From: Acidobacteriota bacterium
GTDB lineage: Bacteria > Acidobacteriota > Terriglobia > Bryobacterales > Bryobacteraceae
Length of the DNA stretch: 36,934 nucleotides
Reading direction: 5' to 3'
NCBI GenBank assembly: GCA_016871055.1
Contig: VFZW01000017.1
Coordinates: forward strand, 1-36,934
Part shown: one piece after another, positions 16,351-24,171 of the stretch
Layout of the letters: every line of letters begins with the position of its first letter
Position numbering within the stretch: position 1 is the stretch's first letter
Made by a program: the position numbers and the translations under genes
The notes under the pieces: model-generated
The model's database searches: none
Told to the model about the DNA's origin: nothing
Seen by the model: the letters and a program-made list of their open reading frames with translations, nothing else

Positions 16351-16379
16351 TTGCATTTGGCCTGCTTCTAGCCTAGACT
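16351..16379 (+). promoter_or_regulatory. Promoter of the ilv attenuator and operon
   Basis: TTGCAT (16351-16356) and TAGACT (16374-16379) are separated by exactly 17 bases, fitting a housekeeping-sigma promoter. The predicted transcription start falls at about 16386, the G of the leader-peptide GTG, so the leader message would be leaderless. Confidence 0.65.
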
Positions 16380-16385
16380 CAAAGA

Positions 16386-16517
16386 GTGAGTGTTGATCGC
16401 ACCCTTAGTCTGCCCGTGGCTATCGGCCAGGGTGTTGTGCGTCCGCTCGTAGTTTCCGGCATCATTCCTCTCGTAGTAGTAGGAATTATTGGGGTAACCG
16501 TAACAGGTCCCGCCTGA
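16386..16517 (+). CDS. ilv operon leader peptide (43 aa, Val/Ile/Leu-rich)
   Basis: A 43-codon frame beginning GTG and ending TGA at 16515-16517, just before the attenuator hairpins. Beyond the initiator it contains 11 Val, 5 Ile and 4 Leu, the end products of the operon it precedes. The densest block is codons 29-39 (LVVVGIIGVTV), which includes three consecutive GTA Val codons at 16473-16481 and two consecutive ATT Ile codons at 16485-16490. Such control codons stall the ribosome when charged tRNA is scarce. It has no Shine-Dalgarno; the promoter at 16351-16379 predicts a transcript starting at the GTG. Minus-strand frames across this stretch have no comparable support. Confidence 0.85.
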   Translation: MSVDRTLSLPVAIGQGVVRPLVVSGIIPLVVVGIIGVTVTGPA

Positions 16518-16556
16518 GTGGCACCGGAAAAAAGGCATAGAAGCCACCGGCGGGAC
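16507..16556 (+). promoter_or_regulatory. Antiterminator hairpin of the ilv attenuator
   Basis: GTCCCGCC (16507-16514) pairs with GGCGGGAC (16549-16556), and GTGGC (16518-16522) pairs with GCCAC (16543-16547), with a small internal loop, giving 13 base pairs. This uses the left arm of the terminator (16541-16551), so the two structures exclude each other. The 5' arm overlaps the last leader codons and the stop codon: a ribosome that finishes the leader covers it, and one stalled at the Val/Ile codons leaves it free. A further 7-bp pairing, 16453-16459 with 16524-16530, may act as a protector hairpin. Confidence 0.75.
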
Positions 16557-16581
16557 AGAAACCCAAGCCGGTGGCTTTTTT
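16541..16581 (+). terminator. ilv attenuator terminator
   Basis: An 11-bp perfect stem (AAGCCACCGGC at 16541-16551 with GCCGGTGGCTT at 16567-16577) has a 15-base loop and is followed by six Ts (16576-16581). It lies 24 bases after the leader stop codon and 33 bases before ilvB, the expected place for a transcription attenuator. Confidence 0.9.
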
Positions 16582-16614
16582 CGTTTGTGGCCAAACACGA
16601 GGAGTGAACAACAG

Positions 16615-18339
16615 ATGTCTCAATTAATGAGCGGATCCAAAATCCTGCTGGAGTGCCTGGCGCGAGAAGGCGTCGACACGATCTTCGGCTATCCCGGCGG
16701 CGTAACGATTCCGTTCTACGACGCGATGCTCGATTCGCCGATCCAGCACGTGCTGGTTCGTCACGAACAGAACGCGGCATTCGCCGCGCAGGGCTATGTG
16801 CGCTCGACGGGCAAAGTCGGCGTGTGCTGTGCGACATCGGGCCCCGGCGCGACGAACCTCGTCACCGGCTTGGTCGACGCGATGATGGACTCGATTCCGA
16901 TCGTGGCGATCACCGGCCAGGTGCCGACCAAGCTGATCGGCTCGGACGCGTTCCAGGAAGCCGATACATTCGGCATCACGCGCTCGGCGACAAAGCACAA
17001 CTATCTCGTCAAGAACATCAACGAATTGCCGGCCGTGATCCATGAGGCGTTCTACATCGCCAACAGCGGGCGGCCCGGTCCCGTGCTGGTCGACATCACG
17101 AAGGACGTGTTTCAGGGCAACGCCCACTACGTGCCGGTGACCTCGATTCACCTGCCCGGCTACAAGGTCTACACCGAAGGTCACACGGGTCAGATCCGGC
17201 GCGCGGCGCAAATGATGCTGGAAGCCGAACGGCCGATGGTTTACGCGGGCGGCGGCGTGGTGCTGTCGAATTCGAGCGATGAACTGCGCGAGCTGGTCGA
17301 ACTTGTCGACGCGCCTTGCGTGACTACGGTCATGGGCCTCGGCGCGCTGGCGGCCGATCATCCGAACTTCATCAGCATGCCCGGCATGCACGGTAGCTAT
17401 GCAGCGAACATGGCGATGTATGGCACCGACCTGATCATCGCGCTCGGTGTGCGATTCGACGACCGCGTGACCGGTCGATTGAACTCGTTCGCGCCGCATG
17501 CGCGCGTGATTCACGTCGACATCGATCCCGCCGAAATCGGCAAGAATCGCAACGCCGATCTACCAATCGTTGGCGACCTGAAACGCGTAATGCCGAAGCT
17601 CTCGGCGGTGCTGGCGGAGTTGAAGCCGGGGATTGGCGAGCGCACCGGATTGAAGGCGTGGTGGAAGCAAGTCCGCGCGTGGATGGACGAACACCCTTTG
17701 CGCAAGCCGGTGACGTCACCGGACGAAATCAAGCCGCAGCATTTGATGGCCGAGATCGACCGTTTGACTAACGGCGAAGCCATTGTAACTTCCGACGTTG
17801 GCCAGCACCAGATGTGGTCGGCGCAGTTGATTCGCTTCAACAAGCCGCGCTTGTGGATCAACTCGGGCGGCCTCGGGTCGATGGGCTTCGGCCTGCCGGC
17901 GGCGCTGGGTGCACAATACGCCAATCCGGACAAGCTGGTGATTGCGATCTGCGGCGACGGCGGCTTCCAGATGTCGTTGCCGGAGTTGGCGACGCTGCAA
18001 AACTACGGCTTGAACGTGAAGGTCATCATCATGAACAACGGCTACCTGGGCATGGTGCGTCAGTGGCAGGAGCTGTTCTACGCGAATCGTTTGTCGCAGG
18101 TGACGCTCGATTCGTTCCCCGATGTTGAAAAGCTCGCGGGCGCGTACGGATTCAAGGGCCGCACGATCGAGCATCCTCGCGATTTGCGGGATGCACTCAA
18201 AGAAGCCTTCGACACGCCGGGTCCATACTTGCTGAACGTTCGCGTCACGCCGACCGAAAACGTCTTCCCGATGGTGCCCGCCGGCGGCGCGATCAACGAA
18301 ATGGTGCTGGCCCCGCCGCAGCCGGCGATGGCGAGGTAG
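16615..18339 (+). CDS. ilvB: Acetolactate synthase, large (catalytic) subunit
   Basis: Thiamine-diphosphate enzyme that condenses two pyruvates to 2-acetolactate (Val/Leu) or pyruvate with 2-oxobutyrate to 2-aceto-2-hydroxybutyrate (Ile). The 574-residue product has the usual length. The catalytic Glu is in VRHEQNAAFAAQGY (about residue 50), the central FAD/Rossmann-like domain includes DDRVTGRLNSFAPHA (about 283), and the ThDP/Mg motif GDGGFQMSLPELATLQNYG with the following NNGYLGMVRQWQELFY is at about 447-485. The ATG at 16615 is chosen over an in-frame upstream start at 16585 because GAGGAG lies 10 bases upstream and the frame before it runs into the terminator. First structural gene of the attenuated operon. 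Confidence 0.96.
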   Translation: MSQLMSGSKILLECLAREGVDTIFGYPGGVTIPFYDAMLDSPIQHVLVRHEQNAAFAAQGYVRSTGKVGVCCATSGPGATNLVTGLVDAMMDSIPIVAITGQVPTKLIGSDAFQEADTFGITRSATKHNYLVKNINELPAVIHEAFYIANSGRPGPVLVDITKDVFQGNAHYVPVTSIHLPGYKVYTEGHTGQIRRAAQMMLEAERPMVYAGGGVVLSNSSDELRELVELVDAPCVTTVMGLGALAADHPNFISMPGMHGSYAANMAMYGTDLIIALGVRFDDRVTGRLNSFAPHARVIHVDIDPAEIGKNRNADLPIVGDLKRVMPKLSAVLAELKPGIGERTGLKAWWKQVRAWMDEHPLRKPVTSPDEIKPQHLMAEIDRLTNGEAIVTSDVGQHQMWSAQLIRFNKPRLWINSGGLGSMGFGLPAALGAQYANPDKLVIAICGDGGFQMSLPELATLQNYGLNVKVIIMNNGYLGMVRQWQELFYANRLSQVTLDSFPDVEKLAGAYGFKGRTIEHPRDLRDALKEAFDTPGPYLLNVRVTPTENVFPMVPAGGAINEMVLAPPQPAMAR

Positions 18340-18351
18340 GAGTTACTCACG

Positions 18352-18903
18352 ATGCAACAGATCATCAGTTTGTTATTGGAAAACAAGACAGGCGCGCTGA
18401 TGCGTGTGACCGGGCTGTTGACGGCCCGCGGATACAACATCGATAGCTTGACCGTCGCGCGGACGCTCGATCCGGAGCTCTCGCGAATGACGATCGCCGT
18501 CGACGTGGAGCCGCATCAGCGGCGCCAGTTGATCAAGCACATGAACAAGTTGATCAATGTCCTGCAGGCGACCGATTTGACCGACGCGCCGTCGGTGACG
18601 CGCGAGATGTTGCTGATGCGCGTGCGGTCGGCGCAGGAGACGCGCACGGCGATTTTGAAGGAAGCCGAGATTTTCGGCGTGCGCGTGGTGGATTCGACGC
18701 TCGAAGGATTCGCGCTCGAGGCCACTGGCGATATCGAGAAGCTCGATGAGTTTATCGACATTATGCGGAGCTACGGCGAGATCGAAGTGACTCGCGGCGG
18801 CGCCGTGGCAGTCTCGTTGGAATCGAAGAAACTACGCCTCTCGCCCCCGGTGCCCCGAGGCGCCGAAGAGACGCGGCTCGAAGAAAAGAACGGAGTCATT
18901 TAA
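18352..18903 (+). CDS. ilvN: Acetolactate synthase, small (regulatory) subunit
   Basis: Regulatory subunit (often named ilvH) that stimulates the catalytic subunit and confers valine feedback inhibition. The 183-residue product begins [35 protein letters not shown], which is the ACT domain that binds valine (about 1-75), followed by the ALS_ss_C domain (about 80-160: EMLLMRVRS ... [20 protein letters not shown]). It starts 13 bases after ilvB, with GGAG just upstream of the ATG, and ends two bases before ilvC. Length and domain order are standard. Confidence 0.95.
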
Positions 18904-18905
18904 GA

Positions 18906-19925
18906 ATGTTGAATCGCTACTACGAAAAAGACGGCAACCCGGCGCTATTGAAGAACCGTGTGTTCGCCGTTATTGGCTACGGAAGCCAGGGACATGCGCA
19001 CGCTCTCAACCTGCGCGATTCGGGCGCGGACGTGATCGTCGGCCTGTATCCGGGATCGAAGAGCTGGGCCAAGGCGGAAGCCGCCGGCCTGCGCGTGATG
19101 ACGGCCGCCGACGCTACCAAGGCCGCCGACACGATCATGGTGCTGGTCAGCGACCACATCCAGCCGGACCTTTACGAAAAAGAGATCCAGCCGAATTTGA
19201 CCGCGGGCAAGACGCTCATGTTCGCGCACGGCTTCTCCATCCACTTCGGCTACGTGAAGCCGCCGGCCGATGTCGACGTTTCGATGATCGCGCCGAAGTC
19301 GCCGGGCCATCGCGTCCGCGAACTATTCACGGAAAACGTGGGCGTGCCGGGTCTGGTCGCGGTGCATCAGAATGCGTCGGGCAAAGCGCTGGAGAACGCG
19401 CTGGCGTATGCGCTGGGTATCGGTTGCTTGCGCGCGGGCGTGATTGAAACTACGTTTAAGGAAGAAGCCGAGACCGATCTGTTCGGCGAGCAGACGGTCC
19501 TTTGCGGCGGCACCAGCGAGTTGATCAAAGCTGGTTTTGAAACGCTGGTTGAAGCCGGCTACGCGCCCGAGATGGCGTATTTCGAGTGCCTGCACGAACT
19601 CAAATTGATCGTCGATTTGATCTACGAAGGCGGCCTTGAGTACATGCGCTACTCGGTGTCCGATACCGCCGAGTACGGCGACTACGTGACCGGCCCGCGC
19701 ATGATCAACGCCGACACCAAGGCGCGCATGAAGCAGGTTTTGACCGAGATCCAGGACGGCACGTTCGCGCGCACCTGGATGAACGAAAATCGCACCGGCC
19801 GGCATAACTTCCTGGCCATGCGCAAAGCCAACCAGACGCATCAGATCGAAACCGTGGGCAAAGAACTGCGGGCGATGATGCCGTTCCTCAAGAAGAAGAA
19901 AGAGGCTGGCGTACCCGAGGCATAA
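18906..19925 (+). CDS. ilvC: Ketol-acid reductoisomerase (class I)
   Basis: Mg2+- and NADPH-dependent enzyme that rearranges and reduces acetolactate or acetohydroxybutyrate to the dihydroxy acid, the second step of Val/Ile synthesis. The 339-residue product has the class I short length. The Rossmann motif [17 protein letters not shown] (about 20-36) binds the dinucleotide. The C-terminal knotted domain holds the metal-binding [17 protein letters not shown] (about 187-203) and [17 protein letters not shown]. It begins two bases after ilvN, so translation is probably coupled. Confidence 0.96.
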
Positions 19926-20021: not shown

Positions 20022-21635
20022 ATGCGCATCTTTACCTTCGACACGACACTCCGCGACGGCACGCAAGGCGAAGCCGTTTCCTTCTCTGTCGAGGACAAGC
20101 TGATTATTAGTCAGAAACTGGATGAGCTCGGCATTGACTACATTGAGGGCGGCTGGCCCGGTTCCAATCCGAAGGACAAGGATTTCTTCGCACGCGCGAA
20201 AGACGAACTGCGGCTGAAGCACGCGAAGTTGACGGCGTTCGGCTCGACGCACTTTGCCAAGAACACGGTCGAAAACGACGCGAACGTGCGTGAGTTGCTC
20301 GGCGCGGAAACGCCGGTGATCAGCATCTTCGGCAAGACGTGGGACTTTCATGTGACACGGGCGTTGGGCATCGCGCTCGAAGAGAATTTGAAGATCATTC
20401 ACGACACGGTGGCCTATTTGAAGAAGCACGGGCGCGAGGTGGTCTACGACGCCGAGCACTTCTTCGATGGCTACTTCGCCAATCCGGAATACGCATTGCA
20501 GACGCTGCAAGCGGCCAGGGAGGCGGGCGCCGATGTGTTGTGTCTTTGCGATACCAACGGCGGCACGGTGCCGTCGAAGCTGGTCGAAGCCGTCGCGGTC
20601 GTTCGCGCCAAGTTTGACGGCGTGATCGGAATTCATCCGCACAACGATTCCGATGTCGCGGTGGCGAATGCATTGGCGGCGGTCGAAGCCGGCGTGACGC
20701 ACGTGCAAGGCTGCATGAACGGCTACGGCGAACGCTGCGGCAATGCGAACTTGGCGTCGATCATCGCCAACCTCGAATTGAAGCACGGGCACACGACAAT
20801 CGGCCGCGATAAGTTGACTGGACTGACCTCGGTCGCGCGCTTCATCGCCGAGCTTGCGAACTTGCAAATCCCGTACGGACAAGCCTACGTCGGCCAGAGC
20901 GCGTTCGCGCACAAGGGCGGCGTGCATGTGAGCGCGGTGATGAAGGATTCGGCGACGTACGAACACGTGCGGCCGGAGTGGGTGGGCAATCGCCAGCGCG
21001 TGCTGGTGAGCGATCTATCGGGCCGCAGCAACATTCTCTATCGCCTGAAGGAGCACGGTCTCGAAGACAAGCTCGACGAGAACTCACGCAAGACGATGCT
21101 TGAAAAAATCAAGCAGATGGAGTTCGAGGGCTACGAGTTGGAAGCCGCTGAAGGCACCTTCGAGTTGATGGTCCGCGAGGCGCTGAATCCCGGCAAGAAC
21201 TTCTTCGATGTCGTGAGTTTTGATGTCGTCACCAAGATGGGCCGCAGCGGCGGATCGCTGACAATGGCCACCGTTTCGCTGCAAGCGCAGGACGGATTGC
21301 ACACCGAAACATCGGTGGGTAACGGTCCAGTCAACGCGCTCGACCTGTGTTTGCGCCGGTGTTTGGTGGGCCAATATCCAGCCATCGCCAACGTGAAATT
21401 GACTGATTACAAAGTGCGCGTGATCGACTCGAAAAAGGGCACGGCCGCGAAGGTGCGCGTGCTGATCGAGTGGTCCGATCATAAACGCTCCTGGGCGACG
21501 GTCGGTGTTTCCGACAACGTGATCGAGGCGTCGTGGAAGGCGCTGGTCGATGCGATTCGGTTGGAGCTGATGCGGCTAGCGGATAAGAGCGACGCGATTG
21601 AGAAGGCTGTTGAAGACTACTGCTGGGGTGTCTGA
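20022..21635 (+). CDS. cimA: Citramalate synthase
   Basis: Condenses acetyl-CoA and pyruvate to (R)-citramalate, the entry to 2-oxobutyrate and isoleucine without threonine. The 537-residue product matches the long CimA/LeuA-related family: TLRDGTQGEAVSFS (about 9-22), IHPHNDSDVAVAN (about 205-217) and CMNGYGERCGNANL (about 228-241) are the metal and substrate motifs of the DRE-TIM catalytic barrel. A LeuA-type C-terminal allosteric domain follows (about 400-530), which usually binds isoleucine. The start at 20022 is preceded by AAGGA. The similar 2-isopropylmalate and homocitrate synthases are less likely, given the EGGWPGSNPKD signature and ilv context. The 3' end overlaps the convergent gene by 19 bases. 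Confidence 0.9.
   Translation: MRIFTFDTTLRDGTQGEAVSFSVEDKLIISQKLDELGIDYIEGGWPGSNPKDKDFFARAKDELRLKHAKLTAFGSTHFAKNTVENDANVRELLGAETPVISIFGKTWDFHVTRALGIALEENLKIIHDTVAYLKKHGREVVYDAEHFFDGYFANPEYALQTLQAAREAGADVLCLCDTNGGTVPSKLVEAVAVVRAKFDGVIGIHPHNDSDVAVANALAAVEAGVTHVQGCMNGYGERCGNANLASIIANLELKHGHTTIGRDKLTGLTSVARFIAELANLQIPYGQAYVGQSAFAHKGGVHVSAVMKDSATYEHVRPEWVGNRQRVLVSDLSGRSNILYRLKEHGLEDKLDENSRKTMLEKIKQMEFEGYELEAAEGTFELMVREALNPGKNFFDVVSFDVVTKMGRSGGSLTMATVSLQAQDGLHTETSVGNGPVNALDLCLRRCLVGQYPAIANVKLTDYKVRVIDSKKGTAAKVRVLIEWSDHKRSWATVGVSDNVIEASWKALVDAIRLELMRLADKSDAIEKAVEDYCWGV

Positions 21636-24094: not shown

Positions 24095-24171
<77 letters not shown>

Follow-up and report, generated by a model that had tools for sequence, protein, structure and literature searches.

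A probable ribosome-mediated attenuator upstream of ilvB–ilvN–ilvC–cimA, conserved across an order of Acidobacteriota

The locus

The window (that is, the whole stretch of DNA analysed here, 36,934 nt long) comes from a 7.14-Mb genome of 713 contigs assigned to the Bryobacteraceae, order Bryobacterales, and carries ilvB, ilvN, ilvC and cimA in this order, as read in an earlier note made from the sequence alone and confirmed with NCBIfam models (Table 1). The closest named relative of IlvB is 98% identical and derives from an Acidobacteria metagenome-assembled genome (MAG; L036), followed by proteins of Bryobacterales MAGs at 76% (L037) and 73% (L038) identity. Further along the window lies a tRNA gene (24095–24168; Rfam RF00005).

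Direct reading of the region upstream of ilvB bears out, at the positions given, the short frame that the earlier note had described, with 43 codons of which 11 encode Val, 5 Ile and 4 Leu, and likewise the two hairpins proposed to follow it: an 11-bp terminator with six T residues, the first two of which also pair in the stem, and a 13-bp antiterminator, which comprises 8 + 5 bp on either side of an internal loop with the leader stop codon in it. Folding z-scores lie between −3.6 and −3.7 for three segments of this hairpin region and at −0.05 for the leader itself (16386–16510).

Table 1 Features of the leader region and operon in the window
Feature	Coordinates	Strand	Basis
Promoter: TTGCAT (16351–16356), 17-nt spacer, TAGACT (16374–16379)	16351–16379	+	Sequence; conservation in the family
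Leader frame: GTG start, 43 codons, then TGA	16386–16517	+	Sequence; start at the expected +1
Regulatory block, codons −14 to −5: GTA GTA GTA (16473–16481) GGA ATT ATT (16485–16490) GGG GTA (from 16494) ACC GTA (from 16500)	16473–16502	+	Ile/Leu/Val fraction by position
Antiterminator 5′ arm: GTCCCGCC, stop TGA in internal loop, GTGGC	16507–16522	+	Sequence, folding, covariation, native versus swapped arms
Terminator 5′ arm	16541–16551	+	Sequence, folding, covariation
Antiterminator 3′ arm: GCCAC-C-GGCGGGAC, overlaps the terminator 5′ arm	16543–16556	+	Sequence, folding, covariation
Terminator 3′ arm (16567–16577) and T run (16576–16581)	16567–16581	+	Sequence, folding, covariation
ilvB, acetolactate synthase large subunit	16615–18339	+	TIGR00118, 782 bits (cut-off 538)
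ilvN, acetolactate synthase small subunit	18352–18903	+	TIGR00119 and PRK11895, above cut-off
ilvC, ketol-acid reductoisomerase	18906–19925	+	TIGR00465, above cut-off
cimA, citramalate synthase	20022–21635	+	TIGR00977, 695 bits (cut-off 450)

Conservation across relatives

From the relatives we collected as much as 600 nt of sequence preceding ilvB and searched the last 400 nt for an intrinsic terminator of −15 kcal/mol or lower, an upstream segment able to pair with the terminator 5′ arm at −15 kcal/mol or lower, and a frame of at least 12 codons with its stop in the pairing segment (3-nt tolerance) and at least 35% Ile, Leu or Val among its last 20 codons. This full anatomy is present upstream of ilvB in 72 of the 76 usable members of the family (91 genomes, the rest having no or a partial ilvB match, a contig end or no fetched sequence), in 9 of 17 members of two sister families of the order, and in 0 of 16 regions from families outside the order. 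The branched-chain-rich short frame, whose conservation the earlier note had proposed to examine, is therefore kept across the family and less completely across the order. In 62 of the 81 positives, 60–66 nt separate the stop from the T run.

A terminator with a competing upstream arm is common when the frame is disregarded (419 of 1,620 shuffles and 141 of 732 400-nt tiles of the window). The full test, including the frame rich in branched-chain codons, was passed by 9 of 1,620 dinucleotide shuffles, by 3 of the 732 tiles (each overlapping the attenuator site) and by a single one of the 81 reverse complements. Among ilvB upstream regions from other taxa, 4 of 74 pass (L063, L070, L084 and L092); these belong to Desulfobacteraceae, Thermodesulfobacteriota or Deltaproteobacteria MAGs.

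A covariance model, built from 75 sequences from genomes of the same order, matches (E ≤ 0.01) 220 of the 257 genomes of that order, 149 of the 163 of good quality and 80 of its 84 genera. In the source genome of the window, it matches the attenuator site alone at E ≤ 1, plus the reverse strand of the terminator at E = 0.41. The model also recovers two of the four family members that the full test missed (L155 and L020); the other two, L034 and L122, keep the TTGCAT promoter with no leader seen and are apparent natural losses of the ilvB attenuator. The genome of L034 (G067) keeps a copy before cimA, and that of L122 (G086) has a weak one before ilvA.

Of 297 genomes sampled across the phylum, 29 match the model; 3 of these are family members, and 26, from outside the order, match weakly (E = 6 × 10−6 to 0.008). 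We fetched 12 of these 26 weakly matching genomes, and in five the match precedes pathway genes and comes with a Val/Ile-rich frame whose stop falls within the antiterminator arm: before pheA and then ilvB (L228), before pheA (L233), before ilvB (L231) and, identified by eye, before ilvN and then ilvB (L229) and before ilvN and ilvB (L235). The other seven showed no such leader (L239 having been inspected through long open reading frames only). In L228 and L233, both from another acidobacterial family (f56), a Val-rich leader thus precedes pheA, with ilvB following in L228. A threonine-type attenuator was considered at L236, before a probable homoserine dehydrogenase gene (by eye), and rejected; the frame there is not Thr-rich and ends out of register.

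Covariation of the two stems

Compensatory changes, which the earlier note had named as a check, were found in both stems in an alignment of 75 of the 81 positives, and they argue strongly for the terminator and moderately for the antiterminator. In the terminator, 95.7% of cells are paired and 66 are double-change cells, compared with a shuffle mean of 17.6 (0 of 500 shuffles as high); 7 of 10 pairs have changed on both sides (a number attained in 24 of 500 shuffles), and the stem beats every slid register. In the antiterminator core, 87.5% of cells are paired, with 14 double-change cells versus 6.1 in shuffles (0 of 500 as high) and 4 of 7 pairs changed on both sides (a number attained in 20 of 500 shuffles). 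Sliding the 3′ partners of the antiterminator by +1 or +2 yields 6 or 5 double-change pairs and 14 or 15 cells, but only 63% or 51% of cells remain paired versus 87.5%; the double-change count is blurred because some rows are one base out of register.

An alignment-free comparison agrees in that antiterminator arms pair better with their own partners than with swapped ones (mean −26.96 versus −23.69 kcal/mol; 0 of 5,000 permutations), also with one row per genus (−26.85 versus −24.03 kcal/mol; 0 of 5,000), although these controls, like those for covariation, remove the relatedness of the sequences only in part. Columns 43, 92 and 121 each represent one of the three strands; 35 rows have C-G-C there, 7 have T-A-T, and the other 33 are spread over 13 further combinations.

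One genus of a sister family (g75) departs from this pattern: eight of its nine loci fail the full test (L167–L173 and L175; L174 passes), and most of the nine genomes keep the leader codons and the antiterminator 5′ arm while the terminator or T run looks eroded. Some version of the system may therefore work without an intrinsic terminator, as would be expected if translation of the leader acted through Rho or polarity instead of through a choice between hairpins. Given that the intrinsic terminator is strong and covarying in the window and the other positives, we regard such a mechanism as very improbable and favour the choice between hairpins.

Promoter and leaderless start

The promoter proposed earlier (TTGCAT and TAGACT, 17 nt apart) is present in the window, and an exact TTGCAT-17-TAnnnT recurs in 61 of the 72 attenuator-bearing family members versus 3 of 3,600 mononucleotide shuffles, with a TTGCAT-like element 16–18 nt before TAnnnT in 70 of the 72. 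A generic sigma-70 scan does not list this promoter among its calls; the support for it is conservation. In the ilvB leaders of this family, the −35-like element that is strongly conserved is TTGCATTT (16351–16358 in the window) and not TTGACA. The conserved TTGCAT could reflect either a sigma preference or a regulator site; an exact TTGCAT occurs in the best promoter candidate of 0 of the 22 second copies scanned (that is, copies of the element before cimA, ilvA, leuA and ilvN-like genes, see below).

The GTG of the window leader is the 7th base after the −10 hexamer, that is, the expected +1, and with the transcription start placed from this hexamer the leader is probably leaderless. An in-frame ATG or GTG lies at offset 6 or 7 after the −10 hexamer in 36 of 70 relatives, compared with 30 of 912 in-frame positions at offsets 20–59; where leaders are in frame there, it is found at the 7th base in 24 of 39 and at the 8th in 12 of 20. 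As the first in-frame ATG or GTG lies at offsets 8–19 in 28 of 70 leaders (a 5′ untranslated region of approximately 2–13 nt), not all leaders are strictly leaderless. Leaderless genes have been predicted in all three Acidobacteria genomes examined in PMC3160421 (in excerpt).

Ribosome position and hairpin choice

Folding with a ribosome footprint, another check that the earlier note had put forward, predicts that a stalled ribosome frees the antiterminator arm and that a ribosome at the stop codon covers it. For RNA of the window that does not yet include the terminator 3′ arm, the antiterminator core has P = 0.99 with the A site at codons −14, −12, −10, −9 and −7, P = 0.62 at codon −6 and P = 0.00 at codons −5 and −4 and the stop. 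Stalls at codons −14, −10, −9 and −7 leave half or more of the shared arm paired in a fraction of 0.98–0.99 of the 81 relatives; this fraction is 0.96 at −6, 0.59 at −5 and 0.10 at −4. The earlier claim that the whole codon block sits where stalling matters is thus retained for codons −14 to −7, at which stalls are predicted to free the arm, but not for the last GTA (codon −5), at which in the window they are not. This GTA (16500–16502) is kept in 60 of 75 aligned rows, though it is a predicted unproductive stall site in the window.

When the ribosome sits at the stop and the RNA behind it is excluded, half or more of the shared arm is paired in 3 of 81 relatives; once pairing of that RNA is allowed, the arm reaches this level with upstream partners in 56 of 81 (window 0.81), so that the model depends on the order in which the RNA is transcribed. 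Once the RNA is complete, the terminator prevails at every ribosome position (P = 0.98–1.00), and the predicted switch must therefore be kinetic. With no ribosome on the RNA, 75 of 81 relatives have an occupied terminator arm as their default state (a thermodynamic prediction only).

No consensus stem for a protector hairpin was found by RNAalifold in alignment columns 1–52 and 1–75, a result that says little because the antiterminator, too, escaped the same method when it was applied to columns 1–116 (which lack the terminator 3′ arm). Two mutually exclusive hairpins that both covary would also suit a leader whose hairpin is selected not by the ribosome but by a metabolite, as in a riboswitch, or by a bound protein, and ppGpp riboswitches govern some bacterial ilvB genes (PMC10272879, in excerpt). 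We consider this highly unlikely here, given that Rfam 15, with its leader, T-box and other families, yields none above its gathering score for the window or 20 relatives, that no consensus fold emerges upstream of the antiterminator arm (a weak test, as just noted), and that the conserved upstream part is instead a reading frame with an amino acid content matched to the pathway. Four Rfam matches at E up to 10 (E = 0.084 to 9.1) were all below gathering scores and were rejected.

Leader codons and second copies

Comparison of the leaders places the branched-chain codons close to the stop: the fraction of Ile, Leu and Val codons is 0.46–0.91 at codons −17 to −5 and then 0.07 at −4 (n = 81 leaders). 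Synonymous choice is also skewed. Over the last 18 codons of 72 leaders, 57% of the Val codons are GTA (180 of 317), compared with 9% in 27 ilvB genes (114 of 1,266); for ATT among Ile codons the corresponding values are 60% (155 of 260) and 31% (298 of 950), and for CTT among Leu codons 39% and 9%. GTT and ATA are not enriched in leaders relative to ilvB genes, so the bias is not simply toward A/T endings.

The element also occurs elsewhere in some genomes. Among genomes with more than one model match, for which part of the second matches was fetched, second copies lie before cimA (15, examined as 11 and then 4), ilvA (3), leuA (1) and ilvN-like genes (L314, L315 and L323), with gene identities from NCBIfam for L216, L217, L226, L314 and L323 (the last under the family cut-off) and from tblastn against these and the genes of the window for the remainder. 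In the last 16 codons, the first 11 cimA leaders average 4.1 Ile, 0.5 Val and 2.1 Leu, and all 15 have 3–6 Ile and 0–2 Val; the ilvA leaders average 2.7 Ile and no Val (n = 3), with 4 Ile and 2 Val in a further one (L274); the sole leuA leader has 7 Leu, 1 Ile and no Val; and the ilvN-like leaders L314 and L315 have 5 Ile and 2 Val. Where cimA has its own copy, ilvB leaders average 0.75 Ile, 4.9 Val and 2.6 Leu (n = 12; G174, G182 and G185 were assigned to this group before checking and later confirmed), compared with 3.25 Ile, 3.9 Val and 1.1 Leu in other ilvB leaders (n = 12). Leader codon identity therefore tends to track the product of the downstream pathway in these genomes, which were selected for multiple model matches and represent few independent codon changes because most split genomes fall in one genus (g50). 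One exception is G199, in which the ilvB leader keeps four Ile codons despite a separate cimA copy.

The reach of the element differs among these genes. For ilvA, a frame with an Ile run and its stop in the arm was seen in 4 of 30 fetched loci (L270–L272 and L274), all from the genus of the window, and the model match before ilvA in G086 has only 2 Ile in 16 codons. We rejected leuA as a regular member of the regulon, as 0 of 10 other long-type leuA loci of the family (L240–L249) carry the element; none of the other fetched leuA loci has a frame rich in branched-chain codons, G268 being the only exception. Two equal-scoring copies in G234 (contigs C265 and C305) may reflect a duplicated or redundantly binned contig.

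The leader could alternatively encode a conserved small hydrophobic peptide with a function of its own, downstream of which a constitutive terminator only tunes basal expression; the peptides do share C-terminal residues (GPA is seen in 35 of 81), and action of a leader peptide in trans is known from peTrpL (PMC7298713, in excerpt). However, the C terminus changes with the RNA arm (peptides end in SPG or GPG in place of GPA when the arm sequence is CCCCGG), the N-terminal parts of the listed leaders look unrelated between genera, codon identity varies with the downstream gene, and synonymous choice is strongly biased toward GTA. We therefore judge a peptide function very improbable as the explanation.

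Proposed mechanism and relation to known attenuators

Given the conserved frame, the mutually exclusive covarying stems, the intrinsic terminator, the position of the codon block, the agreement of codon identity with the downstream pathway and the predicted footprint geometry, all of which support the reading of the earlier note, we propose that a ribosome-mediated transcription attenuator very probably controls ilvB–ilvN–ilvC–cimA; from the sequence, we infer its transcription start, leaderless initiation, stalling, and readthrough with its response to amino acids. RNA polymerase would start at approximately 16386, making the GTG start the first codon of the RNA, so that the ribosome would load on a bare 5′ end. 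With charged Val- and Ile-tRNA, the ribosome would trail the polymerase to the TGA and cover the antiterminator 5′ arm, and the terminator with its T run would end transcription. With Val- or Ile-tRNA in short supply, the ribosome would stall in the GTA/ATT block (codons −14 to −7), leaving the arm free to pair with its 3′ partner, and the polymerase would read into ilvB. The operon would thus be switched off when Val and Ile are plentiful.

We further envision, with somewhat less than even confidence, a single ancestral leaderless attenuator of the Acidobacteriota that was copied before cimA, ilvA, leuA and ilvN-like genes, the codon run being rewritten to suit the amino acid of the new gene while the terminator and antiterminator body was kept. 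Departure of cimA from the ilv operon would then have led the ilvB leader to lose its Ile codons, and ribosome loading on the bare 5′ end would replace a pause or protector hairpin. Because the cimA, ilvA and leuA leaders represent natural codon swaps, both the codon-identity rule and the GTA preference are testable on natural variants.

No case of leader-peptide attenuation of amino acid operons in Acidobacteria was found among the open-licence matches listed, although Lopatovskaya et al. 2010 (cited in PMC4833913) could contain cases. Predicted attenuators in the phylum had almost no associated functions according to an excerpt of PMC2965389, and short leader genes were counted in Acidobacteria in PMC4833913 (in excerpt), in the main text of which ‘ilv’ is absent. 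The present proposal offers an attenuation mechanism for a large, poorly studied phylum, with some 220 genomes together, and what makes it notable is the order-wide conservation in a phylum with no described case found, plus the codon differences between paralogous leaders.

By architecture, the element is a ribosome-mediated attenuator of a known type that has no Rfam family match in the searches made. It resembles the Corynebacterium ilvBNC attenuator (ilvB-II motif) in having an upstream frame before ilvB with overlapping terminator and antiterminator (PMC10272879 and PMC11857589, both in excerpt), and the frame there is likewise treated as leaderless, with GUA named as the control Val codon of Corynebacterium glutamicum (PMC11857589, in excerpt). 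Compared by description in these two sources, the Corynebacterium system differs in its peptide of usually 15–17 codons, its antiantiterminator hairpin and its phylum. The ilvB-OMG motif is also a predicted upstream-frame attenuator before ilvB (41 representatives from various phyla; PMC10272879, in excerpt), from which our element is set apart by the Rfam result, provided that the Rfam copy includes that motif. The trpL leader of Sinorhizobium meliloti differs in sensing tryptophan and in its 14-residue peptide (PMC7298713, in excerpt). For the ilvB leader of Streptomyces coelicolor, changing the candidate codons had no effect, which counts against an attenuator reading (PMC1262725, in excerpt).

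The Escherichia coli leaders ivbL (of ilvBN) and ilvL (of ilvXGMEDA) are similarly rich in Val, Ile and Leu, with peptides to which that of the window bears no similarity by eye, as the earlier note had stated. Their terminator 5′ arms lie 27 and 23 nt past the stop, compared with a median of 26 nt in the Acidobacteriota leaders, and they differ from the window leader in that its start lies at the expected 5′ end of the RNA. A stop codon within the antiterminator arm is shared with known attenuators, because the best-pairing arm overlaps the stop in ivbL and thrL as well. In the absence of a ribosome, the terminator arm is predicted to be occupied in ilvL (0.86) and partly in ivbL (0.52), as in 75 of the 81 Acidobacteriota leaders, whereas the same calculation gives a default occupancy of 0.06–0.26 for trpL, leuL and thrL.
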